This document shows positions 31,658-51,637 of a stretch of DNA of 64,000 bases, piece after piece. How positions within the stretch are numbered: position 1 is the stretch's first letter; each line of letters begins with the position of its first letter. Made by a program: the position numbers and the translations under genes. Source of the stretch: Pseudalkalibacillus salsuginis. Its GTDB lineage: Bacteria > Bacillota > Bacilli > Bacillales > Fictibacillaceae. The stretch lies in contig NZ_JAKJHW010000003.1 in the NCBI RefSeq assembly GCF_021646685.1, positions 310,001 to 374,000 of the forward strand, read 5' to 3'. A model generated the notes under the pieces. That model ran no database searches. It was given only the letters and a program-made list of their open reading frames with translations, and had not been told where the DNA came from.

Positions 31658-32103
31658 GATAAGAAAGTATAATGATTTTGTTGCTCCAACGCCCAACCCC
31701 TTGGATCACCTTCAGTCCTCTTGCGGCGGTCGATACATTGATTTAGGTCAAAGGGTTCACCCGCGCAGAACCGAACTTTGTTTGGTTCATAAGACCTTAA
31801 TGAGGCACTTACAACGCGAAAAATCGATTTTAAGGTACTCATAAGACCTGTATGAGGCACTTACAACGCGAAAAACCGATCTTAAGGTACTCATAAGACC
31901 TGAATGAAGCACTTACAACACGAAAAATCGATCATAAGGTCCTCATAAGGCCTTTATGAGGCACTTACAACGCGAAAAACCGATCTTAAGGTACTCATAA
32001 GACCTTTATGGAGTACTTACAACACGAAAAACCGATCTTATGAGCTTCCTCGTCGGGCTTCCAGTGACCTTCGTGGTTGTCCAGGGCATTTGCGCTTTTC
32101 TTA
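31658..32103. repeat. Composite intergenic element carrying a 52-nt repeat array
   Basis: The left flank (GATAAGAAAGTATAATG, then GCTCCAACGCCCAACCCCTTGG and TCAGTCCTCTTGCGGCGG) and the right flank (CTTCCTCGTCGGGCTTCCAG through GGGCATTTGCGCTTTTCTTA) match the short element at 36075-36191. Between them sits extra sequence with the array at 31788-32047. A near twin is found at 40615-41016. No coding potential: the 52-nt unit is not a multiple of three. Confidence 0.75.
31788..32047. repeat. 52-nt tandem repeat array, five units
   Basis: Units start at 31788, 31840, 31892, 31944 and 31996, exactly 52 nt apart, each beginning CATAAGRCCT. Across unit borders TAAGGT-N9-ACCTTA forms a small inverted repeat, and within each unit GAGGCACTTACAACGCGAAA is highly conserved. 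Units differ by only a few substitutions and no indels. Confidence 0.85.
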
Positions 32104-32139
32104 TATTCATTGAATTGTTACATAAACTAGTTAATAGAA

Positions 32140-32169
32140 TTGTTGGAGTGCTCGAAAACGTAGTATAAT
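32140..32169 (+). promoter_or_regulatory. Predicted SigA promoter of the yvcI-rapZ-yvcK-whiA cluster
   Basis: TTGTTG (32140-32145) and a perfect TATAAT (32164-32169) are separated by 18 bp, 12 bases upstream of the GTG start of yvcI. If this is the start point, the leader is very short. Confidence 0.55.
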
Positions 32170-32180
32170 CAAGGAAAGAG

Positions 32181-32648
32181 GTGAATCATGTGCAACGAGT
32201 GACGAATTGTGTACTCGAAAAAGATAATCAAATCTTAGTGCTGCAAAAACCTCGTCGTGGGTGGTGGGTAGCACCCGGTGGAAAAATGGAGTCTGAAGAG
32301 ACGATTAAAGATGCGGTTATCAGAGAGTATCGTGAAGAAACAGGACTTTATCTACTCAATCCAAGATTAAAAGGTGTTTTCAATTTTATCATTAAAAAAG
32401 ATGAGCAAATTGTAGAGGAATGGATGATGTTCACCTTCTATGCAACTGGCTTCGAAGGTGAAGTGGTTTCTGAATCGGAGGAAGGGAAGCTGGCCTGGAA
32501 ACCGAAAGAAGAAATTTCAAGCTTGCCGATGGCCCCAGGGGATTATCATATCCTCGATTATATGATGACCGGGAACGGGATGATCATCGGGACGTTTACG
32601 TATACACCTGACTTCAAACTGCTCAGTTATCGTTTAGATCCATCATAA
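32181..32648 (+). CDS. yvcI: NUDIX hydrolase YvcI
   Basis: The 155-residue protein has the Nudix box spanning about residues 38-60 (GGKMESEETIKDAVIREYRE followed by ETGL), which hydrolyses nucleoside diphosphates linked to another group. It corresponds to B. subtilis YvcI, the first gene of the conserved yvcI-rapZ-yvcK-whiA-crh set. I kept the GTG at 32181, with AAGGAAAG upstream. A second GTG at 32190 is possible. The substrate is not known. Confidence 0.88.
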   Translation: MNHVQRVTNCVLEKDNQILVLQKPRRGWWVAPGGKMESEETIKDAVIREYREETGLYLLNPRLKGVFNFIIKKDEQIVEEWMMFTFYATGFEGEVVSESEEGKLAWKPKEEISSLPMAPGDYHILDYMMTGNGMIIGTFTYTPDFKLLSYRLDPS

Positions 32649-32744
32649 AAAAGGTTGTCGAAAACAGGTGAATGTTTGATCGATTTCAAAGAGGCTGGAT
32701 CAAGCCTGTTTTACTTGAAATTAAATAAGAAAGGCGGGGTATAG

Positions 32745-33647
32745 ATGGAACAACAACAAGAATTCAGGATGGTCATCATCACGGGAATGTCCGGCGCAGG
32801 AAAAACGGTAGCGATGCAAAGCTTCGAGGACCTTGGCTATTTCTGTGTCGATAACCTGCCGCCAGCGCTCCTTCCGAAGTTTGTCGAACTGATGGAAGAT
32901 TCCACTGGTAAACTGACCAAAGTTGCACTTGTCATGGATTTACGCGGAAGGGAGTTCTTCGATCAGTTGTTTGAAACGATCGATGAACTGACAGATTCCT
33001 CAATTATAAAACCGCACATCCTCTTTTTGGATGCAGAGGATGCCACACTCGTGCAACGCTATAAAGAGACCCGGCGTTCACATCCTCTTGCTCCTGACGG
33101 CTTGCCGCTCGACGGAATCAAAAATGAAAGGGAATTGCTTGAAGAACTGAAAGGCAGAGCCCAAACCATTTTAAATACGACGGATATGAAGCCGAAACAG
33201 CTGAGGGAAACGATCATTGATCGATATAAGACCAATGAATCCCATCCATTTACGATCAATGTCTTGTCATTCGGCTTTAAATACGGAATGCCGATTGATG
33301 CTGACCTTGTGTTCGATGTCCGTTTCCTGCCGAACCCTCATTATGTCGAGCATATGCGTCCAAAAACCGGCCTGGAGGAAGAAGTCTCTTCCTATGTACT
33401 AAAGTGGTCTGAAACACAAAAATTCATCGAAAAGCTTACTGCACTACTGGACTTCATCATCCCTCATTATAAGCGGGAAGGAAAAAGCCAGCTTGTGATC
33501 GGGGTCGGTTGCACTGGCGGAAAACATCGTTCAGTCACCCTTGCTGAACACTTGAAGGATTATTTACGCAAAGAATATCACGTTCATAGCAGCCACCGTG
33601 ATATCAAGAAAGATAAAAAGGTACCAGAGATTGAATCGAAGGCCTAA
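32745..33647 (+). CDS. rapZ: RapZ/YvcJ family nucleotide-binding protein
   Basis: This 300-residue P-loop protein has Walker A GMSGAGKT near residue 14, [14 protein letters not shown], and the C-terminal RapZ domain ([17 protein letters not shown]). In Enterobacteria RapZ is an RNA adaptor for GlmZ decay. In Bacillus YvcJ hydrolyses nucleotides and has been linked to competence, so the E. coli role should not be transferred directly. GGCGGGG precedes the ATG. Its 3' end overlaps yvcK by 17 bp. Confidence 0.95.
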
Positions 33648-34587
33648 AGTAGTCGTTTTCGGCGGGGGGACAGGATTGTCAGTCCTGTTGAGAGGGTTGA
33701 AGAAATTCCCCGTTGATATTACAGCAATCGTTACGGTTGCTGATGATGGCGGGAGTTCGGGGAGATTAAGGGAAGAGCTCGACATCATACCTCCGGGAGA
33801 CATTCGGAACGTATTGGCTGCCCTTTCAGAAGTGGAACCGCTTGTGGAGCAACTTTTCCAGCATCGTTTTACAAATGGAAATGGCTTATCAGGACACTCG
33901 CTAGGAAATCTATTGTTGGCTGCAATGTCAGACATCACCGGTAATTTTGTGACGGGAATCCGGGAACTGTCGAAGGTTTTGAACGTACGCGGAAAAGTAC
34001 TGCCCGCTTCCGACCACCGTGTCATCTTGAATGCCCAGATGAATGATGGATCGATCGTATCAGGAGAGTCGAAAATCCCTCATACAGGTAAACAGATCGT
34101 TCGGGTCTTTTTGACGCCAGATACGGTAAAGCCTCTTGATGAAAGTTTACGTGCGATCCGGGATGCCGATCTGATCCTGATCGGGCCGGGAAGCTTATAT
34201 ACGAGCATACTTCCGAGCTTGCTCGTACCAGGCATTCCTGAAGAGATCAAGAATTCTACTGCCAGGAAAGTCTATATTTGCAATGTGATGACACAGCCGG
34301 GCGAGACTGACTACTTTACTGCTTCTGATCATGTGAATAAACTCGTCTCCCATATCGGACAACAGATAATTGATACAATTATTGTAAATAATGATAAAGT
34401 ACCAGACAATGTATTGACGAAATATGAAGCAGAAGGTGGAGAGCCTGTTGAATATGATGAGAAGAGGCTAAAATCCTTTGGCTTTAAGGTAATCAGTGAT
34501 AAAATAGTTCAATATAATGATTCGCTGATCAGGCATGATGCGAAGCGTGTTTCAGAAATCATTCTGGATTTAGTATCAGACTATTAG
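33631..34587 (+). CDS. yvcK: YvcK/GlmR gluconeogenesis factor
   Basis: YvcK (GlmR) is needed for growth on gluconeogenic carbon sources and binds UDP-GlcNAc, linking metabolism to cell-wall precursor synthesis. Motifs are [18 protein letters not shown] at the N terminus, [16 protein letters not shown] and [13 protein letters not shown]. An open frame begins at a GTG at 33598 without an SD. The TTG at 33631 has AAAAGG eight bases upstream and gives 318 residues starting [13 protein letters not shown], matching the family. Confidence 0.95.
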
Positions 34588-34621
34588 ACCCCGGTATGGA
34601 AAAGAAGAGGGGGTGTCCGTG

Positions 34622-35557
34622 GTGTCCTTTGCTTCAGATACGAAAAAAGAATTGACGAAGCTTGAGTTGAAAAAGTGCTGTTCAAAGGCTGAGTTGTCGG
34701 CCCTGATTAGAATGAATGGTTCAATTTCAATAGCGAACAGGGAAATTATACTTGATATTCCTACCGAAAATGCTGCAATCGCACGAAGGATTTATACATT
34801 GATCAAGCAGCTGTATGGTTATCCAGCTGAACTGCTCGTCAGGAAGAAAATGAGGTTGAAAAAGAATAATGTCTACATCGTACGGATCAAGCATGATTCA
34901 CGGACGTTATTGAACGAACTGGATATAATGGGTGAAGGCTTTTCCTTCAAGAGGGACGTTTCGAAAGAGATCACTAAGAAAAGCTGCTGTAAGAGATCCT
35001 ACCTGAGAGGCGCTTTCCTTGCAGGTGGATCCCTGAACCATCCGGAAACCTCGTATCATCTGGAAATATTCTCAATGTATGAAGAGCATACCCAATCGCT
35101 GTTGGAACTGATGAATTCTTTCGATCTCAATGCAAAAATGTTAGAGCGGAAAAAAGGATTTATCATCTACTTGAAAGAAGGAGAAAAGATCTCTGAGTTT
35201 CTGACTTTGATCGGCGCTCATAATGCTCTCTTATATTTTGAGGATGTGCGGATCATGAAGGATATGCGTAATTCGGTGAATCGTCTCGTGAACTGCGAAA
35301 CAGCGAATCTGAATAAGACCGTCGGAGCGTCCATGCGCCAGGTCGAGAACATCCGGTTGATCGAGCGTGAACTCGGACTGGAGAAACTGCCTGACAAACT
35401 TAGGGAAATCGCAGAACTGCGTGTAAAATATCAGGATGTTACACTACAAGAGCTTGGAGAACTCGTCACTTCTGGTCCAATCAGTAAATCCGGAATCAAT
35501 CATCGATTACGGAAGCTAGATGAAATGGCCAATAAAATACGCCTGGGAAAAATATAA
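34622..35557 (+). CDS. whiA: DNA-binding protein WhiA
   Basis: WhiA combines a degenerate LAGLIDADG homing-endonuclease fold (about residues 20-200) with a C-terminal helix-turn-helix ([22 protein letters not shown]). In Bacillus it affects cell division and chromosome segregation. The catalytic LAGLIDADG acids are replaced, as normal for WhiA. A GTG at 34613 gives three more residues. I chose the GTG at 34622 ([12 protein letters not shown]) because AGGGGG is spaced 8 bases from it and relatives begin that way. crh follows after 175 bp. Confidence 0.93.
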
Positions 35558-35732
35558 GACAGGCGTTTTTCTTTTCAAAATGAAGTGAACGCTTACATAT
35601 AGACCGGTCACAAGCAAAACGAAGGGGACAGCTGACTGCCTGTTTTAGGAGAACGTAATATAACTTTTTTACATTTATTATGAAGAGTTGTTATATAAAT
35701 CAATATAGGACTGTACAAGGAGGAATGATCCA

Positions 35733-35990
35733 TTGTTAGAAAAAAATTTGACGGTTGAATTGAAAACCGGCTTGCAGGCTCGTCCAGCAGCACTCTTCGT
35801 CCAAGAGGCGAATCGTTTTTCAGCGGATGTATTTTTAGAGAAAGACGGAAAGAAAGTGAATGCAAAGAGCATCATGGGAATTATGAGCCTGGCTGTAGGA
35901 TCAGGTTCGAAAGTAACGATTGTGACAGACGGGAAAGATGAAGAAGAAGCTCTCAAAGCGTTAGAAAAATACATTACAACAGCTGAATAA
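35733..35990 (+). CDS. crh: Catabolite repression HPr-like protein Crh
   Basis: Crh is an HPr paralogue that serves only in regulation. The position that is His15 in HPr is Gln here (TGLQARPAA), so it cannot carry a PTS phosphate. The regulatory Ser46 is kept (AKSIMGIMS). HprK, encoded at 9497, phosphorylates Ser46, and P-Ser-Crh then acts as CcpA cofactor. The TTG start has AAGGAGGA upstream. The 85-residue length is normal. A strong terminator follows. Confidence 0.97.
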   Translation: MLEKNLTVELKTGLQARPAALFVQEANRFSADVFLEKDGKKVNAKSIMGIMSLAVGSGSKVTIVTDGKDEEEALKALEKYITTAE

Positions 35991-35997
35991 GTACAAA

Positions 35998-36033
35998 AAC
36001 ACTGCTCCTTTGTGAAGGAGCGGTGTTTTTTTT
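35998..36033 (+). terminator. Intrinsic terminator of crh
   Basis: AACACTGCTCCTT pairs with AAGGAGCGGTGTT around a TGTG loop and is followed by a run of T residues. It probably ends the yvcI-crh cluster. Confidence 0.9.
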
Positions 36034-36074
36034 GGAAGATAGGAAAGGATAAAAATTATGTTTTCGAAGATGGA

Positions 36075-36191
36075 ATGTCCAGCTCCAACGCCCAACCCCT
36101 TGGCTCACTTCAGTCCTCCTGCGGCGGCGACAACCTCCTCGTCGGACTTCCAGTGACCTTCGTGGCTGCTCAGAGCGTTTACGCTTTTCTT
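36075..36191. repeat. Short form of the composite intergenic element (no array)
   Basis: Starts ATGTCCAGCTCCAACGCCCA and ends AGCGTTTACGCTTTTCTTG. It contains the same left and right parts as 31658-32103 and 40615-41016 but reads directly from GCGGCGGCGACAA to CCTCCTCGTCGGACTTCCAG, without the 52-nt repeats. An open frame over it (36012-36239) is not convincing as a gene. Confidence 0.75.
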
Positions 36192-36240
36192 GGAATTGGA
36201 TTTATTGATGCTACCAAACTAATTCAGAAAGAAAACTAAA

Positions 36241-36257
36241 ACTTACTTATTGTAAGT
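36241..36257 (+). promoter_or_regulatory. Operator 1 of catE, TTAC-N5-GTAA type
   Basis: ACTTAC-TTATT-GTAAGT is a perfect inverted repeat overlapping the predicted -35 element. The TTAC-N5-GTAA core is, as I recall, the operator reported for the DUF24/MarR-type repressor CatR of B. subtilis catE. Confidence 0.7.
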
Positions 36258-36277
36258 GTTGGGAATCATGGTATACT
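36250..36277 (+). promoter_or_regulatory. Predicted promoter of catE
   Basis: TTGTAA (36250-36255) and TATACT (36272-36277) are separated by 16 bp, 48 bp upstream of the ATG. The -35 box lies inside operator 1. Confidence 0.6.
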
Positions 36278-36287
36278 AAAGTCATTA

Positions 36288-36304
36288 ACTTATTTAAAGT
36301 AAGT
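36288..36304 (+). promoter_or_regulatory. Operator 2 of catE, near the transcription start
   Basis: ACTTAT-TTAAA-GTAAGT repeats operator 1 with one mismatch, 47 bp further on, where the transcription start is expected. The pair would flank the promoter. Confidence 0.65.
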
Positions 36305-36324
36305 ATTAGTGGGAGGAGTTTCAA

Positions 36325-37191
36325 ATGGCATTTCACAGTCAACCAAACATATATGTGGGTCTTGTACATTTATTCGTTTCTAATCTTGATCATTCACTTG
36401 ATTTTTATACGGATCTCTTAGGCTTTTCAGTTTTAGAGAAAAAAGAGGGAGTGGCATCGCTGACAGCTGATGGTAAAAATGTCCTCATCACCTTAGAAGA
36501 GAAGAAGGATGCTATACCGAAACGAACCAGAACGACAGGACTGTACCATTTTGCAATCCTGGTGCCCACAAGGGAAAATCTCGGTGCATCGTTAAAAAGG
36601 CTTTTAGAAAAGGAATATCGACTCCAAGGCGGATCAGATCATTTGTTCAGTGAAGCGTTATACTTAGCTGATCCAGATGGGAATGGCATTGAAATCTACA
36701 CGGATCGCCCTGCAGAGCAATGGACTTGGGTGGATGGGGAGCTGCCGTTTGTAAGTGATCCGCTTGATATGGAGGGTTTACTGAAGGAAGCTGACGGAAA
36801 AGGATGGGGTGGGCTTCCTGCTGAAACGGTGATGGGCCATATCCACCTTCACGTTAATGACCTTCGAGAAGCGAAGCGGTTTTATGCTGATGGGCTAGGT
36901 TTCGAAATAACTGTTCCATTTCGTCACCAGGCTTTATTTGTGGCATCAGGCGGCTATCATCATCATATCGGATTGAACACCTGGAATGGAACTGGATCAC
37001 AGCGGCCGCATGCAGATGAAGTTGGGATGAAGTGGTATACGATCAACTTTCCAGGTAATCAAGTACTCCAAGAGACTATTGGACGGTTAATTTCGATGGG
37101 CTTTACTGTTGAAAAAGAAAATGAAGACTATTGGACAGTGGATCCTTCAGGAAATCGCATCAACCTTGTCAATTTTAAAAGACATGGCTGA
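36325..37191 (+). CDS. catE: Catechol-2,3-dioxygenase CatE (VOC family)
   Basis: CatE is an Fe-dependent extradiol dioxygenase that opens catechol rings. It detoxifies catechols and protects against quinone stress. The 288-residue protein has two VOC modules. The first has GLVHLFVSNLDHSLDFYTDLLGF, TGLYHFAILVP and DPDGNGIEIY. The second has GHIHLHVNDLREAKRFYADGLGF, GGYHHHIGLN and VDPSGNRINLV, supplying His and Glu metal ligands. The close motif match and the CatR-like operators favour CatE over a generic glyoxalase. GGGAGGAG precedes the ATG. The partner catD is absent here. Confidence 0.85.
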   Translation: MAFHSQPNIYVGLVHLFVSNLDHSLDFYTDLLGFSVLEKKEGVASLTADGKNVLITLEEKKDAIPKRTRTTGLYHFAILVPTRENLGASLKRLLEKEYRLQGGSDHLFSEALYLADPDGNGIEIYTDRPAEQWTWVDGELPFVSDPLDMEGLLKEADGKGWGGLPAETVMGHIHLHVNDLREAKRFYADGLGFEITVPFRHQALFVASGGYHHHIGLNTWNGTGSQRPHADEVGMKWYTINFPGNQVLQETIGRLISMGFTVEKENEDYWTVDPSGNRINLVNFKRHG

Positions 37192-37302
37192 TCCACTAGT
37201 ATCTGGGGTTGCTATTTTTATGTACAGAGTGGGACTTAGTATAAAAATGCGATGTATGGAATGGCTAAAAGTGTGAAAGGTATGTTTAGGAGGTGCTGCA
37301 AC

Positions 37303-37570: not shown

Positions 37571-39874
37571 TTACCCTATTACTGAAGCTGTCTGGTTTTC
37601 ACGTACACGAAGGGCTGCTTCCTGCATGTTTTTCAGAGCGGCGATGCTTTCTTCGATGCCGCGGGTTTTCAGACCGCAGTCAGGGTTAACCCAGAATTGG
37701 CGGGGGTCAAGGACCTGCAAGGCGCGGAGAATGCTTCTCTCCATTTCTTCGATGCTTGGGACACGAGGACTGTGAATATCGTACACGCCAAGTCCGATTT
37801 CTTTGTCGTAACCGATTTTCTCAAAGTCTTCAATTAATTCTCCATGACTACGGGCAGCCTCAATCGAAATGACGTCTGCATCCAGTTGGTCGATCGTATC
37901 AATGATTTCCCCGAATTCGGAGTAACACATATGAGTATGGATTTGTGTATCATTTTTAACAGATGAAGTGGCGAGCCTGAAAGCATAGACTGCTTCATCA
38001 AGATACGCTTGCTGTTTACCTTTTTTTAACGGTAAGCCTTCACGGAGTGCTGGTTCATCAACCTGAATCATGCTGATGCCATTGTTTTCCAAATGTTTAA
38101 TTTCCTTTTCCAATGCCAAGGCGATTTGTTTTGTGACCTCGGAAGGTTTGATGTCATCTCTGACGAAGGACCAATTCAGAATCGTGACTGGCCCTGTAAG
38201 CATTCCTTTGACCGGTTTTTTCGTAAGTGACTGGGCATAGGTGATTTCCTTGACGGTCATCGGTTCTGGTAAGGATACATCACCAAAAATGATCGGCGGC
38301 TTCACACAACGGGAACCGTAAGATTGAACCCACGCATAATCGGTAAAGGCGAATCCTTTGAGCTTTTCACCAAAGTATTCGACCATATCGTTCCGTTCGA
38401 ATTCTCCATGAACGAGAACGTCGAGCCCAATTTCTTCTTGGTGATCAATCCATTCGGATGTTTTTTCTTTAACGAACGTTTCGTAAGCTTCTTTTGACCA
38501 TTTCCCTTTACGGAAACGGGAGCGCGCTAGCCGGATTTCTGACGTTTGCGGAAGGCTTCCGATGGTTGTAGTCGGTAGTAATGGAAGCTGGAAAACCTTC
38601 TGCTGCAATGCCTGGCGTTCAGTGAAAGGTAGGGCACGTGCTGGCTCTTTTCCTTCCCATTTTTGCACTTCCTCCTGAACACTAGGGTTATTGCGTCCCG
38701 TTGAATTCCAAAACTGGTCAAGACGGCTCATTTGCTTCTCTATCTCAGCAGCGATACTGTCTTTTCCATCGTTCATACCTTTGGTCAAAAGCACGGTCTC
38801 TTGTAATTTCTGATCAGCAAAGGCTAACGCATGCTTCAGTTCATCTTCTAAATGTTCTTCCGATATAGTCGTAACCGGTACGTGCAGCAGGCTACATGAT
38901 GGTTGGATGATCAATTGTTCAACATTGACATGCTCGCGGATCACTTCGAGTTGCTGCCACGTTTTCGCCAAATCACTGCGCCATACGTTCCTGCCATCGA
39001 TGAGCCCTGCGGCAAGAGTTTTGTCAGCAGGAAAGCCATGTTTTTTCAGGGCGGCAAGATTTTCCCCGGCATCATGGACGAAATCGATTCCGAGGCCGTC
39101 GACAGGGAAAGTCAGGACTTCTTCATAATGATCAACCGATTCGAAATACGTTTGCAGAAGAACTTTCAAGTTAGGAAGTTCGCCTTGAATGTTCCCGTAT
39201 ACTTTTTTGAAATAGGCAAGCTCTTCTTTGTCCAAGGTTGTGCACAAAATCGGTTCGTCGATCTGTACCCATTCTGCGCCTTCCTTTTCCAGCTCCTGGA
39301 GCACTTGTATGTATAGCGGTACGAGTGCTTCCAGAAGATTTTCGAACGCTTCCTTTTCAAACCCTTTCGCAAGTTTCAAAAAGGTGATTGGGCCGAGAAT
39401 AATAGGCTTGCTTATGATGCCTAGCTTTTCTTTCGCTTCAAGGAAATAGGAAAGCGGGCGATTTTCTGTCAGGAATGGTTTTGCATCGTTCTCAATTTCA
39501 GGAACGATATAATGATAATTGGTATTGAACCATTTGGTCATTTCCGATGCGACGGCTTCATTGGTTCCACGGGCGATATCAAAATACGTTTGAAGCAGCG
39601 ATTTTTCCCCTGATGATTGGAAACGCTCCGGGATGAATCCGAACATGACTGCTGTATCAAGCACATGGTCATAATAGCTAAAGTCCCCGGTTGGGATCCA
39701 GTCGACACCGAAATCCTTTTGCTTCTTTAAATCTTGCAAGCGGAGCTGTTCCATTTTTGCAAGCAGCTCCTCTTCGGTCTGCTGTCCTTTCCAAAACTGT
39801 TCGAGTGCTTTCTTCCATTCGCGTTTTTCACCGATTCTCGGGTATCCGATGGTTGAACTCTTTGCATTTTGCAT
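37571..39874 (-). CDS. metE: Cobalamin-independent methionine synthase
   Basis: MetE transfers the methyl group of methyltetrahydropteroyltriglutamate to homocysteine with a zinc site. The 767-residue protein has the duplicated barrel layout. It has IGYPRIGEKREWKKALEQFW at the N terminus, then GMLTGPVTILNWSFVRDD, IQVDEPALRE, the zinc ligands in IHTHMCYSEF and the last cysteine in NPDCGLKTR. An open frame begins at a TTG at 39901. I chose the ATG at 39874 because GGAGGA is six bases upstream. Expression is governed by two riboswitches in the leader, as expected for a gene that is needless when methionine/SAM or B12 is plentiful. Confidence 0.96.
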   Translation of the reverse strand: MQNAKSSTIGYPRIGEKREWKKALEQFWKGQQTEEELLAKMEQLRLQDLKKQKDFGVDWIPTGDFSYYDHVLDTAVMFGFIPERFQSSGEKSLLQTYFDIARGTNEAVASEMTKWFNTNYHYIVPEIENDAKPFLTENRPLSYFLEAKEKLGIISKPIILGPITFLKLAKGFEKEAFENLLEALVPLYIQVLQELEKEGAEWVQIDEPILCTTLDKEELAYFKKVYGNIQGELPNLKVLLQTYFESVDHYEEVLTFPVDGLGIDFVHDAGENLAALKKHGFPADKTLAAGLIDGRNVWRSDLAKTWQQLEVIREHVNVEQLIIQPSCSLLHVPVTTISEEHLEDELKHALAFADQKLQETVLLTKGMNDGKDSIAAEIEKQMSRLDQFWNSTGRNNPSVQEEVQKWEGKEPARALPFTERQALQQKVFQLPLLPTTTIGSLPQTSEIRLARSRFRKGKWSKEAYETFVKEKTSEWIDHQEEIGLDVLVHGEFERNDMVEYFGEKLKGFAFTDYAWVQSYGSRCVKPPIIFGDVSLPEPMTVKEITYAQSLTKKPVKGMLTGPVTILNWSFVRDDIKPSEVTKQIALALEKEIKHLENNGISMIQVDEPALREGLPLKKGKQQAYLDEAVYAFRLATSSVKNDTQIHTHMCYSEFGEIIDTIDQLDADVISIEAARSHGELIEDFEKIGYDKEIGLGVYDIHSPRVPSIEEMERSILRALQVLDPRQFWVNPDCGLKTRGIEESIAALKNMQEAALRVRENQTASVIG

Positions 39875-39907
39875 TGCCATTCCTCCATGTTCCGTTTTCA
39901 ATCCAAT

Positions 39908-39934: not shown

Positions 39935-40032
39935 CGGCGGAGCGGCACAGGGAAAAAGCTGTAGAAAGAAGACAGACGAATCCCGTAAAATGCCAACACC
40001 TGCCTATTCCTCGTAGGTCGTAGTGTAGGGCT

Positions 40033-40197
40033 CCATAGGCAGGTCTCCTGACTTATGCTCATCACATACCTGCGCCTTCCCATCCAAAGATAGTGACATG
40101 CGTGCAGGCTGCTCCCATATACAGTGGCGGGACCGTGCCGGAATCTCACCGGACTTCCCTTTTAAGCTAGACCTGCCTTGAGGTCCAGCACCTATGG
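40033..40197 (-). ncRNA. Cobalamin (AdoCbl) riboswitch, metE leader
   Basis: Read on the minus strand, the segment has the P1 arms CCATAGG / CCTATGG, then GGGAAGTCCGGTGAGATTCC, GGCACGGTCCCGCCACTGTA, GGGAGC, GGGAAGGCG and GATGAGCATAAGTCAGGAGA, then CCTGCC. These are the standard conserved boxes, including the B12 box GCCACTG. It acts with the terminator at 39908 to stop transcription before metE when adenosylcobalamin is present. Confidence 0.95.
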
Positions 40198-40222
40198 AAT
40201 CTCGATATTGATATTGAATCAT

Positions 40223-40248
40223 AAAAAAACCTCTCAGAGGAGAGGTTT
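40223..40248 (-). terminator. Terminator of the SAM riboswitch expression platform
   Basis: On the minus strand AACCTCTC pairs with GAGAGGTT around CTCT, followed by a run of seven T residues. The 3' side of the SAM aptamer P1 stem (AGAGAGGTC) can alternatively base-pair in this region. Confidence 0.85.
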
Positions 40249-40260
40249 CGGCTGGAAAGA

Positions 40261-40370
40261 CCTCTCTTATTTCTCAAAGCATTCGCTTTGCTGGAATTGG
40301 CACCAAGATCCATCGTTTGATCGGTTGCCGGGTTTCATCGGGCCAGTCCCTCCACCACTCTGAATAAGAG
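40261..40370 (-). ncRNA. SAM-I riboswitch (S-box), metE leader
   Basis: Minus-strand sequence starts CTCTTATTCAGAGTGGTGGA, then GGGACTGGCCCGATGAAACC, CGGCAACC, GGTGCCAATTCCAGCAAAG and closes with AAATAAGAGAGG. These are the conserved S-box elements and the P1 stem. SAM binding should favour the terminator at 40223. It is the first of two tandem riboswitches in the metE leader. Confidence 0.96.
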
Positions 40371-40614: not shown

Positions 40615-41016
40615 AGATAAGAAGGTATAAAAAATTTTGTTTTGATGTCCAGCTTCAACGCCCAACCACTCGGATCCCCTCAGTCCTCCTATGGTGGCAA
40701 CACATTGATTTAGGTCGAAGGGTTTACCCACGCAGAACCGAACTTTTTTGGTTCATAAGACCTTAATGAGGCACTTACAACGCGAAAAATCGATTTTAAG
40801 GTACTCATAAGACTTGTATGAGGCACTTACAACGCGAAAAACCGATCTTAAGGTACTCATAAGACCTTTATGGAGCACTTACAACGCGAAAACCCGATCT
40901 TAAGTTACTCATAAGACCTTTATGAGGCACTTACAACCCGAAAAACCGATCTTTACAGCCTCCTCGTCGGACTTCCAGTGACGTTCGTGGCTAAACAGGG
41001 CGTTTACGCTTTTCTT
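40615..41016. repeat. Second composite element carrying a 52-nt repeat array
   Basis: It begins AGATAAGAAGGTATAA, then ATGTCCAGCTTCAACGCCCA and CAACACATTGATTTAGGTC, and ends CAGGGCGTTTACGCTTTTCT. It parallels 31658-32103 throughout, including the stretch GGTTYACCCRCGCAGAACCG before the array. It lies between the metE promoter and the 3' end of clpP. Confidence 0.75.
40754..40961. repeat. 52-nt tandem repeat array, four units
   Basis: Units start at 40754, 40806, 40858 and 40910, exactly 52 nt apart. Sequence is nearly that of the array at 31788 (CATAAGACCT, GAGGCACTTACAACGCGAAA, CGATCTTAAGG). Confidence 0.85.
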
Positions 41017-45629: not shown

Positions 45630-45738
45630 GGTGCCAGGCACCATTTCAGAAGTGTTGGGGCGAAAGGGTTTTCAGGTGGTGCCTGACACCGATTCCAAAC
45701 ACATGCGTACCAAGGGTTTTCAAATGGTGCCTGGCACC
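45630..45738. repeat. GGTGCCAGGCACC repeat cluster, three copies
   Basis: Copies at 45630-45642 (GGTGCCAGGCACC), 45678-45690 (GGTGCCTGACACC) and 45726-45738 (GGTGCCTGGCACC), spaced 48 bp apart, each self-complementary. They begin four bases after the DUF1641 gene. AAGGGTTTTCA precedes the second and third copies. Confidence 0.7.
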
Positions 45739-45815: not shown

Positions 45816-45845
45816 AACCGAAACTCTGGCTCAGCATCTGTTGAT

Positions 45846-45867
45846 CAGGGCGTTTGCGCTTTTCTTA
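45846..45867. repeat. Right-end fragment of the composite element
   Basis: CAGGGCGTTTGCGCTTTTCT-TA is the same as the right terminus of the elements at 31658, 36075 and 40615. Its last three bases are the reverse complement of the LCP gene stop codon. Confidence 0.6.
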
Positions 45868-46857
45868 TGATTCGGGTTCTTCATCATCGGATTGAGTTGT
45901 CATGTTCGAGGAATTAGGGTCTAATCCCAGGAATTCTTGCAAGGCTTGTTTGTTGGCTTCTATATCCATTTCAAGCACTTGACCGATACCCTGATAAGTT
46001 GGATCATTCCACGTGTTATCGACCGGGATTTTCATCGTCTCGATCTCACTCTTATTCAACATGACATCTTTTGCAAGGCCGATTGCGGTCAACATCTTCA
46101 TATTCGTATCAATGTAAGGTTGGATCGTCCCCATGACCTTTGGAAGCTTGGAGATCCCATAAAGGCTTGTGAACTCATCTTTCACCGCTGAAATCACTTT
46201 TTGCTGACGTCTTACCCGGCCAAAGTCTCCTTCTGCATCATGCCGGAACCTTGCATACCCGAGTAATTTCTTCCCATTCAGATTTTGGACACCAGGGTCA
46301 AGTGTAACACCGATATTCTGCGACATCCGTTTTTCGACATCCATTTCAATCCCATCTGGTGCGATTGTATCTACTACATCCTCAAACCCTTTGAAATCGA
46401 CCAAAGCGTAGTAATGGATATCTATGCCGAAATTATGCTTGATCGTTTTTCGTAAAAGCTCAGGACCACCATGGAAAAAGGCAGTATTGATCTTATTTTT
46501 ACTATAACCCGGTATCTCGACATAAGAGTCCCGCATCAAAGAAACAAGTTTTGTCTCTTCCGTTTTTGTATCGTACTGTGCAATCATGATCGTATCCGTT
46601 CTCGAGTCCTCTTCTCCTCGAGCGTCGACACCTAATAAAAGCACATTATATTTCCCCTCGATTTTTTCCTCTGGGGCATTGAATTCATAATCACTTTCCA
46701 TTTCTGCAGAAGGATCTGCTTGTTGCAGGCCTTGATAGTATTGGATCGCTGCATATCCAGCCACTGCGAAAAAAAGGAGTACCAATACCAACAAAGTCCT
46801 TTTCAGAAAACTTCCCTTCTTGCTTTTTTTCTTTTTTTGCTCCATCCGAGAAGCCAT
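45865..46857 (-). CDS. LCP (LytR-CpsA-Psr) family cell-wall ligase
   Basis: LCP proteins attach teichoic acids or other glycopolymers to peptidoglycan on the outer face of the membrane. The product has a basic N terminus, one membrane helix (about residues 19-38) and an extracellular LCP domain (NVLLLGVDARGEEDSRTDT, VSLMRDSYVEIPGY, KINTAFFHGGPELL, LDPGVQNLNGKKLLGYARFRH, GDFGRVRRQQKVI). An open frame begins at 46932. The ATG at 46857 (330 residues) is preferred for its GGTGGTGA site. The Bacillus relatives are TagT, TagU and TagV; I cannot say which. Confidence 0.9.
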   Translation of the reverse strand: MASRMEQKKKKSKKGSFLKRTLLVLVLLFFAVAGYAAIQYYQGLQQADPSAEMESDYEFNAPEEKIEGKYNVLLLGVDARGEEDSRTDTIMIAQYDTKTEETKLVSLMRDSYVEIPGYSKNKINTAFFHGGPELLRKTIKHNFGIDIHYYALVDFKGFEDVVDTIAPDGIEMDVEKRMSQNIGVTLDPGVQNLNGKKLLGYARFRHDAEGDFGRVRRQQKVISAVKDEFTSLYGISKLPKVMGTIQPYIDTNMKMLTAIGLAKDVMLNKSEIETMKIPVDNTWNDPTYQGIGQVLEMDIEANKQALQEFLGLDPNSSNMTTQSDDEEPES

Positions 46858-46869
46858 ATCTATATTCAC

Positions 46870-47240
46870 CACCATCATAAGTCGGTAATTATGAAGTTTT
46901 ATATTCTGCAAAATTATATCACATTTTGTCAAACCCTACACCGTAATGACAGGATTACCTTATAATACCTCTCATATATAGACGATTTAAAAGCATGAGA
47001 GTTTCAAAAGATCAAGAAATCATAGCCCGTGAAAATGTCGAATGGCTTGAACAGTTGGTATTCCTGACCTTCATAAAATAATTGTACATAAATACCTAGT
47101 TCTGTAGACCCTCTTATTGTCAAAGCGCGTTTAGATTTGTCGGATTCCTAGCTGTTCCTTCCTGTTTATTTTCATATTGAAGGTAATTTGTCAGTTTTAA
47201 TAGAAGGATGTATATATATTTCGATTTTCGAAAGGAAGGG
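46870..47240. other. Divergent promoter region between LCP gene and M14 genes
   Basis: About 370 bases with no gene. TTGACA occurs on the minus strand (about 46931) but no -10 is well placed relative to it. No repeat family recognised. Confidence 0.3.
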
Positions 47241-47247
47241 AAAAATA

Positions 47248-48291
47248 ATGATGAAAAAAACGATGAAAGTTTTGTCGAGTGTGGCGCTTAGTGCTGGGAT
47301 GCTTTTCAGCTTTCCTGTCGGTGATGCGTATGCAGTTGGAGAGGGTCCTAATTACAACGGAAATGAAACAATCAAAAATGAAAGACTCCACAATTATGAG
47401 GAAATGGTTGATTTCTTAGAGAAGCAGGATACGAAATCTGAAGCGTTGACTGTCGAATCGTATGGTAAGTCAGTTAAAAACAGAGACCTGTACCTGGCGA
47501 AATTCATCAGCAATCCTGATAATCCAACTATTTTATTTTTAACCCAACAGCATGGAAATGAAACCTTGATCACAGAAGGTGCATTGAAATTGATCCAGCA
47601 CCTGACATCGAACGGGAAGGATGTACAGCACATACTTGAGAACGTGAATGTGCTTGTTGCTCCTCGCCTGAATGTTGATGGCGCAGAAGGAGACGTCAAT
47701 TTTTCACTTGAAGATTATGTATCAGGGACCCACACGCGTTATAACGCGAATGAAGTGGACCTGAACCGTGATCATGTTGCAAAAGAACAGCCGGAAACTC
47801 AGGCGTTCCATGAAAATGTCCTGAAAAAATATCAACCTGATTACATGATTGATCTCCATCATCAGGGGACACAAACGACATTGGGAGATAGTGATGAACT
47901 TGTATCTGGATCGATCCTTTACCCTACGAATGAGAGTGTTTCACCTGAAGTGGTCGAGAATTCTAAAAAACTCGGCTCAGTAATCTATGAAGCAGTCGAA
48001 GCGAAGGGTTACGGAACATTGTCTAAGTATGTTGGTGGTACAGCTCCAACGATCGGCAGAAACGGAATTGCCATGGAATACGGGATTTCCACACTGTTAA
48101 TGGAAATGAGAGGGATGGCCGATCATTACTACGAGCCGTACGTGTTAGGTCAAAAGAGTAACGGATACTTAATCCAGCAAGCTGTAGTGGCTATGGAAGC
48201 ATCTTTGAAGGCAATTGCCGATGGTTCGATTGAAACAGCGGATACATCCTTCTGGGATACGTTGCCGGAAAGCGGTTGGAAAGGCGAATGA
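47248..48291 (+). CDS. Secreted M14-family zinc carboxypeptidase, first of a pair
   Basis: The 347-residue protein has a signal peptide ending near AYA (about residue 30) and a peptidase M14 domain. The zinc motif HxxE is HGNE in LTQQHGNETLITEG near residue 95, and the third ligand is in DLHHQG near 205. A late GISTLLMEMRG can supply the catalytic Glu. VDLNRDH resembles the substrate-binding Asn-Arg pair. It should trim peptides outside the cell. An open frame starts at 47188; the ATG at 47248 has AAGGAAGGG upstream. It is followed after 54 bp by a paralogue. Confidence 0.88.
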   Translation: MMKKTMKVLSSVALSAGMLFSFPVGDAYAVGEGPNYNGNETIKNERLHNYEEMVDFLEKQDTKSEALTVESYGKSVKNRDLYLAKFISNPDNPTILFLTQQHGNETLITEGALKLIQHLTSNGKDVQHILENVNVLVAPRLNVDGAEGDVNFSLEDYVSGTHTRYNANEVDLNRDHVAKEQPETQAFHENVLKKYQPDYMIDLHHQGTQTTLGDSDELVSGSILYPTNESVSPEVVENSKKLGSVIYEAVEAKGYGTLSKYVGGTAPTIGRNGIAMEYGISTLLMEMRGMADHYYEPYVLGQKSNGYLIQQAVVAMEASLKAIADGSIETADTSFWDTLPESGWKGE

Positions 48292-48345
48292 ACACTGCTT
48301 TCCAGATAAGAATGATTCCAGTTTGAAGTAGGAGGTTTTTATTAC

Positions 48346-49488
48346 GTGCAAAAATTGATGAAATTCATTACATTCCTGTCCATTGCCGGGGTTGTACTAG
48401 GGGCTAGCAGTGTTTATGCAGCGGGGAACACGAAGCCTGGCGGTCCATCGACAAACGGAAACGATAATATTAGCAGCATCATGACATATCAGGAGATGGT
48501 TGATCAGCTTTTCCATCTCGAAAAGAAAAGCAACGGAAAAATCGACGTATCTGCACTGGATGAATACGGGAAATCAGAGCAGGACCGAAGCATTTACGTT
48601 GCAAAAGTCGGTGAAGGGGACACGAAAGTCTGGATCCAAGCACAGATCCATGGCGATGAGAAATTGACGACAGAGGCTGTCATGCAACTTTTAAAAACGT
48701 TAGGAAGTTCAGGGAATCCGGACGTAAAGACGTTACTGGATGAACTTACTCTTTACGTGATCCCGATGTATAATCCTGATGGAAGTATCATGAATACGAG
48801 AGGAACACAACTGATGGATGAGAACGGTGACCCCGTTAGTGATTCGGCTTACGTCGATCTCAACCGGGATTGGAAGCTGGATGGCTTTGAAGCAAAGGAG
48901 TCTGAAGTCGTTTATTCCTATTGGACAGATGTTAAGCCGGATTTCGCGATTGATCTACACCATCAAGGCTTTAAGACTGTTTTTGGAACAAATGAATCAA
49001 CCAGTTTTTCACTTGGTATTTCTCTAGCACCAGATGGACCGACGCTCCCTGGGTTGCAAGACGGTTACTATAACAAGGTCACAAAACAGATGCAAGCCTA
49101 TGTGTATGACAGGCTTACCCGCTATGGATACACGCACATCGATCAATATCAGGTCGGTGGTGACGATGCAAAATATTATATAGACATCAAAGGCGGAGTT
49201 GTTTCGGCCATGATGCTTGGTCTGAATTACAATAATTTGAATCCTGATGGCCATAGCAACCCTGCGATCTTTTTTGAAACGAAAGGGAATACACGAGAAG
49301 GGAACCTAGGTCAGAAATCAAACGGATATTTGACTAAGCAAAACTACTTGGCGTTAAATGAATTGTTGAAAGGCATCGCTTCGAACGAGATCCATGAAGT
49401 CGATCCGGATCATTGGAATGATATTCCTGCTTATCCTGTGGACGGATACTTGACAGATTATGCAGGGATAGTACCAGTTGTAAATTGA
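48346..49488 (+). CDS. Secreted M14-family zinc carboxypeptidase, second of a pair
   Basis: The 380-residue protein is a diverged paralogue of the preceding gene. It starts at a GTG with TAGGAGG ten bases upstream and has a signal peptide (cleavage near VYA). HGDE in QAQIHGDEKLTTEA is the HxxE zinc site, DLHHQG gives the third His ligand, YVDLNRDWK the binding Asn-Arg, and IFFETKGNT the candidate catalytic Glu. The shared HNYEEMVDFL / MTYQEMVDQL start of the mature domain supports duplication. Substrate unknown. Confidence 0.88.
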   Translation: MQKLMKFITFLSIAGVVLGASSVYAAGNTKPGGPSTNGNDNISSIMTYQEMVDQLFHLEKKSNGKIDVSALDEYGKSEQDRSIYVAKVGEGDTKVWIQAQIHGDEKLTTEAVMQLLKTLGSSGNPDVKTLLDELTLYVIPMYNPDGSIMNTRGTQLMDENGDPVSDSAYVDLNRDWKLDGFEAKESEVVYSYWTDVKPDFAIDLHHQGFKTVFGTNESTSFSLGISLAPDGPTLPGLQDGYYNKVTKQMQAYVYDRLTRYGYTHIDQYQVGGDDAKYYIDIKGGVVSAMMLGLNYNNLNPDGHSNPAIFFETKGNTREGNLGQKSNGYLTKQNYLALNELLKGIASNEIHEVDPDHWNDIPAYPVDGYLTDYAGIVPVVN

Positions 49489-49527
49489 CAATAAAGTTAT
49501 TGAATTTTCAAAACCTCTGACACACAT

Positions 49528-49555
49528 AACCCCGTTCTAAATTTAGGACGGGGTT
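49528..49555 (+). terminator. Probable terminator of the M14 pair
   Basis: AACCCCGTTCT pairs with AGGACGGGGTT around AAATTT. The following bases are A-rich, not a T-run, so termination efficiency on the plus strand is uncertain. Confidence 0.5.
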
Positions 49556-49761
49556 AAAATATAGTTATTTAATTTTTGATGTAAGAAACTTTACTATACT
49601 TAAAAATATAACAATCAAGTCGTTAAAATTTATATGTTACTCCATAATACTGCCACGTTAGTTGAAGAACAATAGCTTATTCCAGTAAAGAACTTTTCAT
49701 ACGAAACACTTGTTCCTTTTTTAGGTGACAACTGGTCATCGCGTTATTTAACACGATGAAA

Positions 49762-50301
49762 TTAATGGACAAGCACACTCATGGAAGTTTGGATGTGTTC
49801 CGCATACTTTTTAGCCTCTTGCTCAAGATATTCACCCGTGCCTTCGTTTGCATTATAGGTGATAAATGCGGGAAGATAGGTGCCGTTGCATCTGGTGAGG
49901 GTACTTTGTATCGGTCTTAATAATTCGCTGATCGTGAACCAGTTGTAAGCCCCCGAACGGTATTGCCTTTCCGTACCGCCTGTCGTCGTTACGACCATAA
50001 ACTCTTTACCTTTCAAATGATCGCCTCCGGGTCCAAAAGCCCAGCCGAACGTCAATACATCATCGAACCACTTTTTTAAAAGAGGAGGGCAGCTATACCA
50101 ATAAAAGGGGAACTGAAACACAACCCGGTCATATTGCAGTAGCAATTGTTGCTCCCTCTCCACATTGATACTCCAATTGGGGTATTCCTGATAGAGGTCG
50201 CGAAAATAGATGTCATTGTGATCTTTCAGCTCTCGTGCCAAAGCCTTATTGGCCCGGGAATTATTTAGATTGGGATGTGCAGCGATAACCATAATGTTCA
50301 T
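49762..50301 (-). CDS. ywrO: NAD(P)H quinone oxidoreductase, YwrO-like flavodoxin fold
   Basis: The 179-residue protein has the flavodoxin-like NQO1/MdaB fold: MVIAAHPNLNNSRANKAL at the FMN/FAD-binding N terminus, FQFPFYWYSCPPLLKKWFDDVLTFGWAFG, and VVTTTGGTERQY. It closely follows the pattern of B. subtilis YwrO. Such enzymes reduce quinones or related electrophiles by two electrons. A frame begins at 50310. The ATG at 50301 is chosen because AAAGG is nine bases away. It is transcribed divergently from an HxlR regulator, which probably controls it. Confidence 0.87.
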   Translation of the reverse strand: MNIMVIAAHPNLNNSRANKALARELKDHNDIYFRDLYQEYPNWSINVEREQQLLLQYDRVVFQFPFYWYSCPPLLKKWFDDVLTFGWAFGPGGDHLKGKEFMVVTTTGGTERQYRSGAYNWFTISELLRPIQSTLTRCNGTYLPAFITYNANEGTGEYLEQEAKKYAEHIQTSMSVLVH

Positions 50302-50442
50302 AACGATCATCCTTTCTTTATTTTTCGTAGTATCGCGATCTACACCCCTATTATTATGCGGAAATTCATTTTTGCAAAGTACGCTTTTTTTTCAGACTAA
50401 GTCCTGTGAAACGTACCGTAGACGGCGCCTGATGTCGGTAGG

Positions 50443-50484
50443 TAGTACGGTAAACCGTACTAAGTATGATAAATCATCGTACTG
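50443..50484. promoter_or_regulatory. Paired palindromic operator between ywrO-like gene and hxlR
   Basis: TAGTACGG-TAAA-CCGTACTA (50443-50462) is a perfect inverted repeat. A second, imperfect one, AGTATGAT-AA-ATCATCGTACT, follows at once to 50483. The arms share the AGTA...TACT ends, consistent with two sites for one dimeric HxlR/DUF24 regulator. Confidence 0.7.
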
Positions 50485-50554
50485 TTTTCATTCTTGATAC
50501 TTTGTTAAAATTACAACTAACAAGGTAAAGATCATGTGATCGGGAGATGGTAAG

Positions 50555-50920
50555 ATGCGAGAGGAAATTCATGATTCTAATAACACACAGGGGATATTGG
50601 CCACTCTGCAGGTGATCGGAGGAAAATGGAAGCCACTCATTTTGTTTATTTTACTAAATCAAGGCACAAAGCGGTTCGGGGAATTGAGACGTCTGCTCCC
50701 GAATGTCACGCAAGGAATGCTTACCAATCAGCTTCGTGAAATGGAACGGGACGGACTCATCGAACGCCGAGTATATCCAGAGATTCCGCCCAAAGTTGAA
50801 TATTTTTTGTCCGATCACGGAAGAACGCTAAGTTCGGTTTTGACCGACATGTGCGGGTGGGGATTTAAGCATATCGAATTTATGAAGAATGCGAATGGAG
50901 ACAATGCGAACACCCTTTGA
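50555..50920 (+). CDS. HxlR (DUF24) family transcriptional regulator
   Basis: The 121-residue protein is a winged-helix HxlR regulator ([57 protein letters not shown]). Known Bacillus members YodB, CatR and HypR sense quinones or disulfide stress with an N-terminal cysteine. This protein has no such cysteine; its only Cys is at 100. The start has GGGAGATGG upstream. Divergent placement from the quinone reductase and the palindromes between them suggest local autoregulation and control of ywrO. It is followed by a terminator. Confidence 0.9.
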
Positions 50921-50927
50921 CCTCAAT

Positions 50928-50959
50928 GAAAAAAGACTCTGGCAAAGGTGCCTTTTTTC
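50928..50959 (+). terminator. Intrinsic terminator of hxlR
   Basis: GAAAAAAG pairs with CTTTTTTC, with an inner GGC/GCC stem and an embedded TTTTTT. Confidence 0.8.
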
Positions 50960-51429
50960 GTTCCTGTACATACCATTCCATTTCGAACATACATGTACTT
51001 TTTTATCGGAACGCGGCGTAACTTCCGTCCTAAAAGCTGTTGATTAAAATAAAGTTGTAAACTTCCGAAGATTTATGCAACCTCTAATTCAATTAAATGG
51101 CCCGATTATTGAATAGCATGACTGGCTTTTTTTAAAAACGACTTTATTGTAAATGAACAACTTTATTGTTACTTAACACCAATCCAATAAAGTGGATGAG
51201 GGACCTGAAGGCTGGAATCCAGCTTTTGAGGTCCCTTTTTACGGTAGGAAAATGGAGGGTTTTGGGTGGTGGTAGATGTCTAGATTCATTTGTTGTCTCA
51301 GAAGAACGCTCTGAGTTACTTGTAACCGCAGAAAATTGAGATATTTACCAAAATTCACTCCCTTTCTGCGGGCTTAAGAAAAACGAAAGCGACCCGTATA
51401 GTCACGTAGGTCACTAGAAGATTGAGCCA
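50960..51429. other. Gap with an orphan terminator; possible small RNA
   Basis: No protein gene seen. AACTTTATTGT-like segments recur at about 51142-51172. The strong terminator at 51200-51250 lies about 280 bp after hxlR, which already has its own. Something may therefore be transcribed within 50960-51250. Confidence 0.3.
51200..51250 (+). terminator. Strong orphan intrinsic terminator
   Basis: GGGACCT pairs with AGGTCCC, with an inner GGCTGG/CCAGCT stem, and is followed by TTTTT. No gene ends just before it on the plus strand. Confidence 0.75.
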
Positions 51430-51637
51430 TTTTGAGGTACACATGAAGGTGTTATGAGACCCTGAAAAAATGGGAAACTGATTTTGAGGTATTTATGAAG
51501 GCGTTATGAGACCCTGAAAAAGTAGAAGACCGATTTTGAGGTACTTATGAAGTCGTTATGAGACCCTGAAAAAGTGGGAAACCGATTTTGGGGTCCTCAT
51601 ACAACCCTTTAGGGGGACTGAAAATGAGAAAAATGGA
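51430..51637. repeat. 52-nt tandem repeat array, diverged family member, four units
   Basis: Units start at 51430, 51482, 51534 and 51586, exactly 52 nt apart, with TTTTGAGGTAC, GTTATGAGACCCTGAAAAA and GAAACCGA. Aligned in register with the arrays at 31788 and 40754 (TTTTAAGGTACTCATAAG), about half the positions agree, so it is a related repeat of the same length. It is not enclosed in the composite element. Confidence 0.75.

Follow-up and report, generated by a model that had tools for sequence, protein, structure and literature searches.

Tandem repeats with a constant unit length of 52 nt have been described in Bacillus by Subirana and Messeguer (PMC8161180), who searched for arrays of at least four repeats and reported "no sequence conservation" between species. 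According to the same report, the class is also found in other Firmicutes, a second class of constant size has units of 20-21 nt, and both a protein bound to one face of the DNA and an RNA with a repeated fold were already proposed for the 52-nt class. The constant length is described in print as having no obvious explanation, and the 52-nt repeats of B. coagulans have been reported as transcribed (PMC8625621). Another modular repeat is the BOX element of Streptococcus pneumoniae, which is described as an end module, a variable number of tandem boxB modules and an end module, with boxB sometimes absent (PMC3049150). Here, we analyzed three arrays in a stretch of 64,000 nt from Pseudalkalibacillus salsuginis (contig NZ_JAKJHW010000003.1, positions 310,001 to 374,000), hereafter referred to as the window.

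Three homologous 52-nt arrays in the window

In the initial annotation, three loci were said to step by 52 nt without indels, and this observation was confirmed with Tandem Repeats Finder, which returned a period of 52 and 0% indels for array A (31787-32040, 4.9 copies, 88% matches), array B (40753-40953, 3.9 copies, 89% matches) and array C (51429-51594, 3.2 copies, 86% matches). The final unit of array C (51597-51648) is strongly diverged and matches the two consensuses at only 33 and 30 of 52 positions, so that this array consists of about three good units and a degenerate one. The three arrays are homologous, as had been claimed: aligned in register, the consensus of array C agrees with that of A/B at 36 of 52 positions, which is more than the half identity originally given for array C, as compared to 30 for the best register over 5000 shuffles. 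No direct link between arrays A and C was found with blastn, and both match a common set of additional arrays elsewhere in the genome (C2:5283-5593, C18 near 246200, C13 near 189000 and C6 near 21400). The arrays had also been considered non-coding and free of the unique spacers of CRISPR, and both statements hold: arrays B and C are not overlapped by any ORF of 60 aa or more, the only such ORF (69 aa, minus strand) overlaps part of array A, 52 is not a multiple of three, and the linkers repeat from unit to unit instead of being unique spacers.

Table 1. Arrays and flanks of the composite element in the window. The strand of arrays A, B and C is the unit orientation in which the A-rich linker precedes TACTCAT.
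Feature	Position	Strand	Remark
Array A, 5 x 52-nt units	31788..32047	+	last unit extends into right flank
Array B, 4 x 52-nt units	40754..40961	+	same subfamily as array A
Array C, 3 good units and 1 strongly diverged unit	51430..51637	+	subfamily differs from A/B
Left flank of composite element with array A	31676..31787	+	also found at B and at other copies in the genome
Right flank of composite element with array A	32041..32102	+	overlaps degenerate end of final unit
Left flank of composite element with array B	40645..40753	+	
Right flank of composite element with array B	40955..41016	+	
Unit-free copy of the A/B composite element, shorter left flank	36075..36191	+	

Arrays A and B are embedded in a longer dispersed element, of which the left and right flanks are common to both. 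Among the stretches fetched from this genome, 10 copies of the element contain arrays and at least eight contain no units, and in four junctions compared the array splits the empty form between TTC and GAGC (CAGC in B). The layout of two end modules around middle units that vary in number and may be absent is restricted to this subfamily; most of the 52-nt arrays fetched lack the composite flanks. The boxB module of BOX elements is about 45 nt long. It is possible, if somewhat unlikely, that the repeats are selfish or neutral dispersed sequences of the BOX/MITE type, with the 52-nt unit as the central module of small elements that are non-autonomous. Hairpin-aided slippage would then generate the tandem copies, and the palindrome would be kept by template-switch correction between its arms rather than by selection. 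The composite element supports this explanation for one subfamily, whereas the absence of its flanks from most arrays argues against it.

A gapped-profile scan showed that 318 of 346 unit steps are exactly 52 nt, with two steps of 81-175 nt excluded from the count; the hand-chosen ungapped units of alignments A1-A3 were not used as evidence for constant length. The arrays contain 28 steps other than 52 per 2404 substitutions, as compared to 12 indels per 123 substitutions in the flanks of the composite element (Fisher p 4e-7), a control that was drawn from a single element family of a single genome and for which substitutions were counted differently than in the arrays. The flank indels amount to nine per 60 substitutions on the left and three per 63 on the right. 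Unit length is thus constrained beyond the expectation from flanking DNA, which bears out the earlier suggestion that length is kept while the sequence drifts, and unit length did not vary freely in the related genomes examined. The constrained length takes in the 21-nt linker. This deficit of indels is left unexplained if the arrays are BOX/MITE-type repeats.

Distribution across genomes

A genome-wide search with a 52-nt profile, as proposed in the initial annotation, gave 129 matches in this genome. The units of the genome form several subfamilies with short common signals. With the unit profiles, arrays were detected in four of the eight genomes of the genus (the first genus) and in 10 of the 13 genomes of a second genus, which belongs to another family. 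Scans with order-wide models recovered the family in at least three of 397 and at least three of 150 genomes, numbers that are lower bounds because only 14 and 39 candidates were scored per genome. Among the 116 stretches listed in a pattern scan of genome contigs, two (L078 and L090) have the scores of family members, and the array in L090 is also that of G006. Many arrays across the family are shorter than four units.

Arrays with a common gene neighbour between species formed 25 groups, and the directions of the upstream and downstream genes agree in 20 of these. The groups are defined by one neighbour gene at an identity of at least 45%, and a small number of them could be paralogous. At such common places the number of units differs, for example 15 vs 4 and 11 vs 2, which is in line with dispersed repeats that expand and contract. 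The shared neighbourhoods themselves speak against the BOX/MITE explanation, as does the search of plasmids and phages with two array queries, which gave no match, and the scan of viral contigs with one stem variant, which gave 0 matches. Nor does it explain why one pitch and one core are found in distant lineages.

Short palindromic repeats that are interspersed at many intergenic places could also be REP-like sequences mobilized by a RAYT (Y1 transposase), and PF01797 was matched in all eight genomes of the first genus, with or without arrays. However, among the 17 genomes searched for PF01797, the array-rich genomes G257 and G358 had no match and G413, which is without array matches, had five; moreover, the unit consensus contains neither of the tags GTAG and CGTC given for such repeats in PMC3733652. 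Mobilization by RAYT is therefore not supported, since the repeats have no tag and are not consistently associated with a Y1 transposase, and we consider it highly improbable.

A dyad common to part of the published class

Each unit carries a dyad around TCAT-N9-ATGA, with the family-wide form CTCAT-N9-ATGAG, whereas TAAGGT-N9-ACCTTA, originally put forward as the repeated fold, is present in some A and B units only. The outer arms differ between lineages yet are mostly complementary (75-83% of arm pairs), and they vary within one genome and even within one array (L253). Covariation of the arms was not significant for the units of this genome alone, for which 125 of 500 shuffles scored as high, and was significant with other lineages added or within the second genus when measured as paired cells, changed cells or score. 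The two measures based on the number of pairs or of pair types were mostly not significant (162, 34 and 110 of 500; 60, 6 and 43 of 500). Relatedness and template switching are possible causes of the covariation; template switching can, as reported in PMC8794818, produce compensatory changes without selection, which would suit repeats of the BOX/MITE type. The inverted repeat was not significant in the G000_U1, G004 and PAMC consensuses taken alone (p 0.063, 0.26 and 0.98).

The arrays belong to the published class of constant 52-nt repeats. We found the TCAT-ATGA dyad in six of the 27 families tabulated in PMC8161180, where 0.12 are expected and where it ranks first of 256 tetramer dyads; the other 21 tabulated families lack this core, and 17 of the 27 consensuses contain an inverted repeat at p<0.05. 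A pattern scan for TCAT-N7-ATGA in 398 Bacilli genomes identified eight rich genomes, in which the pitch is 51-53 in 43 of the 46 listed steps. The units of these genomes were read at one place each, and at three of these eight loci the uninterrupted stems reach no more than 4-5 bp. Since the pitch is still 51-53 with a loop of 7 rather than 9 nt, it is the distance from dyad to dyad that is kept, and not the geometry of a hairpin. What is new in relation to the printed description is, as judged from sequence, a TCAT-ATGA core that appears to be common to part of the class, including distant relatives, and this pattern lets part of the class be found across Bacilli.

Candidate mechanisms and comparison with described systems

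The most likely reading, which we favour tentatively, is that the arrays represent a DNA lattice of putative protein sites. DNA has about 10.4 bp per turn, and 52 bp correspond to five helical turns, so that all dyads lie on one side of the helix. The dyad site TCAT-N7/9-ATGA, with outer arms that are more or less complementary, would be repeated every 52 bp from dyad to dyad, and each dyad would be occupied by a DNA-binding protein that these Bacilli have conserved; the protein would contact its neighbour and polymerize or bridge along the array, with a putative role in nucleoid organization or local gene control. Slippage or unequal exchange would alter unit number and homogenize each array, and units of other length would be lost. 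The proposal builds on the observed pitch constraint, the dyad, the arm covariation between lineages, the core common to other lineages and the arrays in shared neighbourhoods with varying unit number. The constraint on the linker counts in its favour, because a bare hairpin would not need a fixed linker, and so does the orientation of arrays relative to genes, which is not significantly biased (24:12, p 0.065; 36:12 before duplicates were removed), as expected of a symmetric DNA site. Arm variation within a genome or an array counts against a lattice, because a single specificity does not predict variable arms. The short uninterrupted stems at three loci, the 21 tabulated families without the core, the three consensuses in which the inverted repeat is not significant and the mostly non-significant pair-counting measures of covariation also count against it, while the inverted repeats in 17 of the 27 published consensuses count in its favour. 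In the full wedge model, none of eight consensuses had a predicted curvature above that of shuffles; in an A-tract-only model, four of the eight did. The 20-21 nt class of PMC8161180 corresponds to two helical turns and was counted on the side of the lattice.

In another reading, which we regard as unlikely, transcription of the arrays would yield strings of hairpins separated by A-rich linkers; such an RNA could, for instance, stabilize a 3' UTR or serve as a sponge for a protein or an sRNA. In RNA folding, 14 of the 14 two-unit segments tried were more stable than the shuffle mean (z -2.2 to -7.8), but folding with DNA parameters was likewise strong in five of seven segments and is therefore not specific to RNA. 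The covarying arms and the reported transcription in B. coagulans (PMC8625621) are consistent with an RNA, and, by raw count, many arrays follow a terminator-like hairpin. Across 11 outer stem pairs of the second genus, G-T mismatches outnumber A-C mismatches by 25 to 8 (16 of the 25 from one column), which leans towards RNA of that strand, whereas the first genus has no such excess (33 to 36). Against an RNA also speak the lack of a significant gene orientation and the fixed linker, the length of which should be freer. Rfam searches yielded no match at gathering score for the arrays of the window, nor for five other loci, in which only matches below gathering scores were obtained at E up to 1.

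For the DNA lattice, the shared core, the covarying arms and the deficit of length changes point to a specific site with a set spacing, which is experimentally addressable, and the palindromic core offers a definite target in tests for a candidate binding protein. It is conceivable, though rather doubtful, that the 52-nt class in Bacilli is largely one ancient system of TCAT-N7/9-ATGA lattices five turns apart, with lineage-specific outer arms and one conserved putative factor assembling along the array. If so, the class would have a common reader as well as a common length.

Like CRISPR arrays, the 52-nt arrays combine a palindromic segment and a spacer at regular pitch, but the "spacers" are repeats themselves. 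With the REP/RAYT system as described in PMC3733652 they share short extragenic palindromes in many copies, and they differ in holding a strict tandem pitch and in having no tag at the stem foot. The likeness to BOX elements (PMC3049150), which are modular, small and have predicted stem-loops, is one of layout, and most of the 52-nt arrays fetched are without end-module flanks. The closest system is the class in PMC8161180. As reported there, the units measure 52 nt and in some cases 51 or 53, the arrays are short and non-coding, each genome holds many families, a unit contains short shared signals together with their reverse, and the distribution over species is patchy; all of this applies here. 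As compared to the minimum of four repeats in that study, array A has five, array B four and array C three good units and a degenerate one. In contrast to the reported lack of conservation, a single 52-nt profile connects genera from two families, and the arms of the dyad covary between lineages.

Unit length and distribution of the 52-nt arrays

The initial annotation had reported three 52-nt arrays of invariant length, with spacing that might be selected. All three are intergenic and step by 52 nt, which bears out that description. Arrays A and B fall into one subfamily and array C into another, and the kinship of C with A and B holds, as the two consensuses, aligned in register, share 36 of 52 positions, compared to at most 30 for the best register of 5000 shuffles. 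In this genome (GCF_021646685.1), the unit combines an imperfectly palindromic stretch of about 31 nt, AAGGTACTCATAA-N5-TTATGAGnCCCTT, with roughly 21 nt of A-rich linker, in which GAAAAA is well conserved.

Features in the window
Feature	Position	Strand	Remarks
Array A	31788-32047		5 units
Array B	40754-40961		4 units
Array C	51430-51637		3 good units and 1 strongly diverged
GTGTCAGACACC / GAGTCAGACACTAATGGGACA motif	51680-51800		adjoins array C; similar stretch near an array in G005 (L056)
Large inverted repeat	45630-45738		arms 42 nt, 76% complementarity, 25 nt between; starts GGTGCCAGGCACC
Repeat of about 21 nt	9301-9371		3.4 copies, between ORFs
Cobalamin and SAM riboswitches, adjacent	40021-40370	minus	upstream of cobalamin-independent methionine synthase gene (37571-39901)
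Bacillaceae-1 RNA	1877-1943		above Rfam gathering score
Bacillaceae-1 RNA	61015-61080		above Rfam gathering score
Bacillaceae-1 RNA	62899-62965		above Rfam gathering score

The genome-wide 52-nt profile search that the annotation had called for recovered further units across this genome. R1, a sequence-only profile from 57 units, matched at least 129 units (E up to 0.01) when 150 of 2097 candidates were scored, and blastn gave 26 matches with array A and 13 with array C, the two sets having places in common. Matches to a second profile, R2, were obtained in four of eight genomes of the same genus, and Bacillus sp. PAMC26568 carries an array of roughly nine units at the 52-nt pitch. A genome of another family (G338) has the same architecture, there with an 11-bp dyad, TACTTCCTCAT-N9-ATGAGGAAGTA. 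A structure model, R3, matched 10 of 13 genomes of the G338 genus at E up to 1e-4 and 8 of 13 at E up to 1e-5, at which none of six genomes from three other genera of that family was matched. Plasmids and phages searched with two array queries gave no match. In several draft genomes, contig ends lie at most about 130 bases from a 52-nt array (C10, C16 and C2 in G415; C30 and C44 in G257; C55 in G055), and arrays may thus break assemblies, with unit numbers perhaps underestimated.

Related genomes keep the unit length that the annotation had described as constant: when indels were allowed for by a gapped profile, the step from one unit to the next was 52 nt in 318 of 346 cases (78/82 in G000, 21/26 in G005, 19/20 in G006, 12/13 in G004 and PAMC26568, 188/205 in the second genus, that of G338). 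Stricter scans gave 170/182 and 170/180, steps that overlap the 346 and are not added to the total. Neighbouring units at the 52-nt step differ by 2404 substitutions in sum, as compared to 28 steps of other lengths, while the flanks of the composite element around A and B show 9 indel events and 60 substitutions (left) and 3 and 63 (right). The pooled indel rates of flanks and units differ 8.4-fold (Fisher p 4e-7), an approximate factor because tree changes were counted in flanks and neighbour differences in units.

A dyad core in the published 52-nt class

The window arrays belong to the class of tandem repeats with constant 52-nt length and variable sequence that Subirana and Messeguer described for roughly 30% of the Bacillus species they examined (PMC8161180). 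That article, which gives 20-21 nt as the other constant repeat length in Bacillus (compare the repeat of about 21 nt at 9301-9371), states no sequence conservation for the 52-nt repeats and suggests either small RNAs or a protein whose polymerisation on DNA would require a constant repeat; a follow-up reports transcription of the B. coagulans repeats (PMC8625621). Our results add to this class inverted repeats in the consensuses and a TCAT-ATGA core shared across families. Among the 27 consensuses in Table 1 of PMC8161180, an inverted repeat was obtained at p<0.05 in 17 and at p<0.01 in 12 (dinucleotide shuffles). The CTCAT-ATGAG core was taken from our own alignments before Table 1, and the exact pattern TCAT-N5..11-ATGA, set after viewing it, is present in 6 of the 27, two of them near-identical families, compared to 0.12 expected. 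The runner-up among 256 tetramer dyads reached 3 of 27, and the best of 256 in 150 shuffled sets never exceeded 4.

As an independent test, 398 Bacilli genomes were searched for pairs of TCAT-N7-ATGA dyads separated by 35-65 nt, with a match in 116; the reversed control gave at most two matches per genome. Eight genomes from five families were dyad-rich (at least six matches each, 370 forward matches together), and among the matches listed their pitch was 51-53 in 43 of 46 steps, as compared to 4 of 35 in the 25 other genomes with listed matches. At one place read in each rich genome, units followed one another at 51 or 52 nt; the outer arms were different (e.g., TGTCCGTCAT/ATGACGGACA), and uninterrupted stems measured 4 to 14 bp. 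Since a loop of 7 goes with 37 and a loop of 9 with 35, both summing to 52, the dyad-to-dyad distance is what is kept. The core was not found reported in the passages covered by a literature search, which at sequence level used the arm sequences of our own arrays.

Covariation, folding and possible readings

In the units of this genome alone, arm covariation did not exceed shuffles. Cells changed on both sides numbered 37 with other lineages added (20.9 +- 3.6 in shuffles), 48 in a second such set (24.2 +- 3.8) and 53 within the second genus (22.2 +- 3.3), with 0 of 500 shuffles as high in each case, and sliding the partner arm by 1-3 columns lowered pairing every time. The counts of pairs with double changes (equalled or exceeded in 162, 34 and 110 of 500 shuffles) and of pair types (60, 6 and 43 of 500) are weak, and the signal therefore rests on few pairs. 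Among the invariant columns in three alignments of chosen ungapped units (A1-A3) are the A in CTCAT and the T in ATGAG, and one array (L253) holds two stem forms. Template switching could keep a palindrome without selection, according to PMC8794818.

A distance that stays constant although loop, linker and arms change agrees somewhat better with a protein lattice than with a string of RNA hairpins or a selfish repeat alone. The putative protein would line one DNA face, the constant distance being five helical turns. We offer this DNA reading, with its putative reader, tentatively; that arms vary within a genome counts against it, as does the possible role of template switching. A string of RNA hairpins seems somewhat less likely. 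In RNA folding, 14 of 14 two-unit segments lay below the shuffle mean (z -2.2 to -7.8); as single-stranded DNA, the tendency was clear in five of seven, weak in one segment (array A, z -2.2) and absent from another (array C, z 0.26). Mismatches in the 11 outer stem pairs were G-T 33 and A-C 36 in the first genus; in the second they lean to one strand (G-T 25, of which one column supplies 16, vs. A-C 8), which shifts the odds slightly from DNA to RNA.

Genomic places and the composite element

By neighbour genes, 98 arrays form 65 groups. Multiple arrays, contributed by different species of one genus, occur in 25 of the groups, and neighbour-gene directions agree in 20 of these 25. Unit numbers differ at shared places (e.g., 15 vs. 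4, 11 vs. 2). Outside the composite element, 24 independent groups between co-directional genes have units that run with the genes, and 12 have units that run against them (p 0.065). As a descriptive observation, a terminator-like hairpin precedes many arrays. Mobilisation by RAYT was not supported. Elsewhere in the window, the tandem riboswitches have an arrangement of the kind known from Bacillus clausii metE.

Arrays A and B sit inside a dispersed composite element, for which the fetched stretches hold 10 array-bearing and at least 8 unit-free copies. At four junctions the array lies between TTC and GAGC of the empty form (CAGC in B). Compared by description with PMC3049150, this element shares the architecture of pneumococcal BOX elements.
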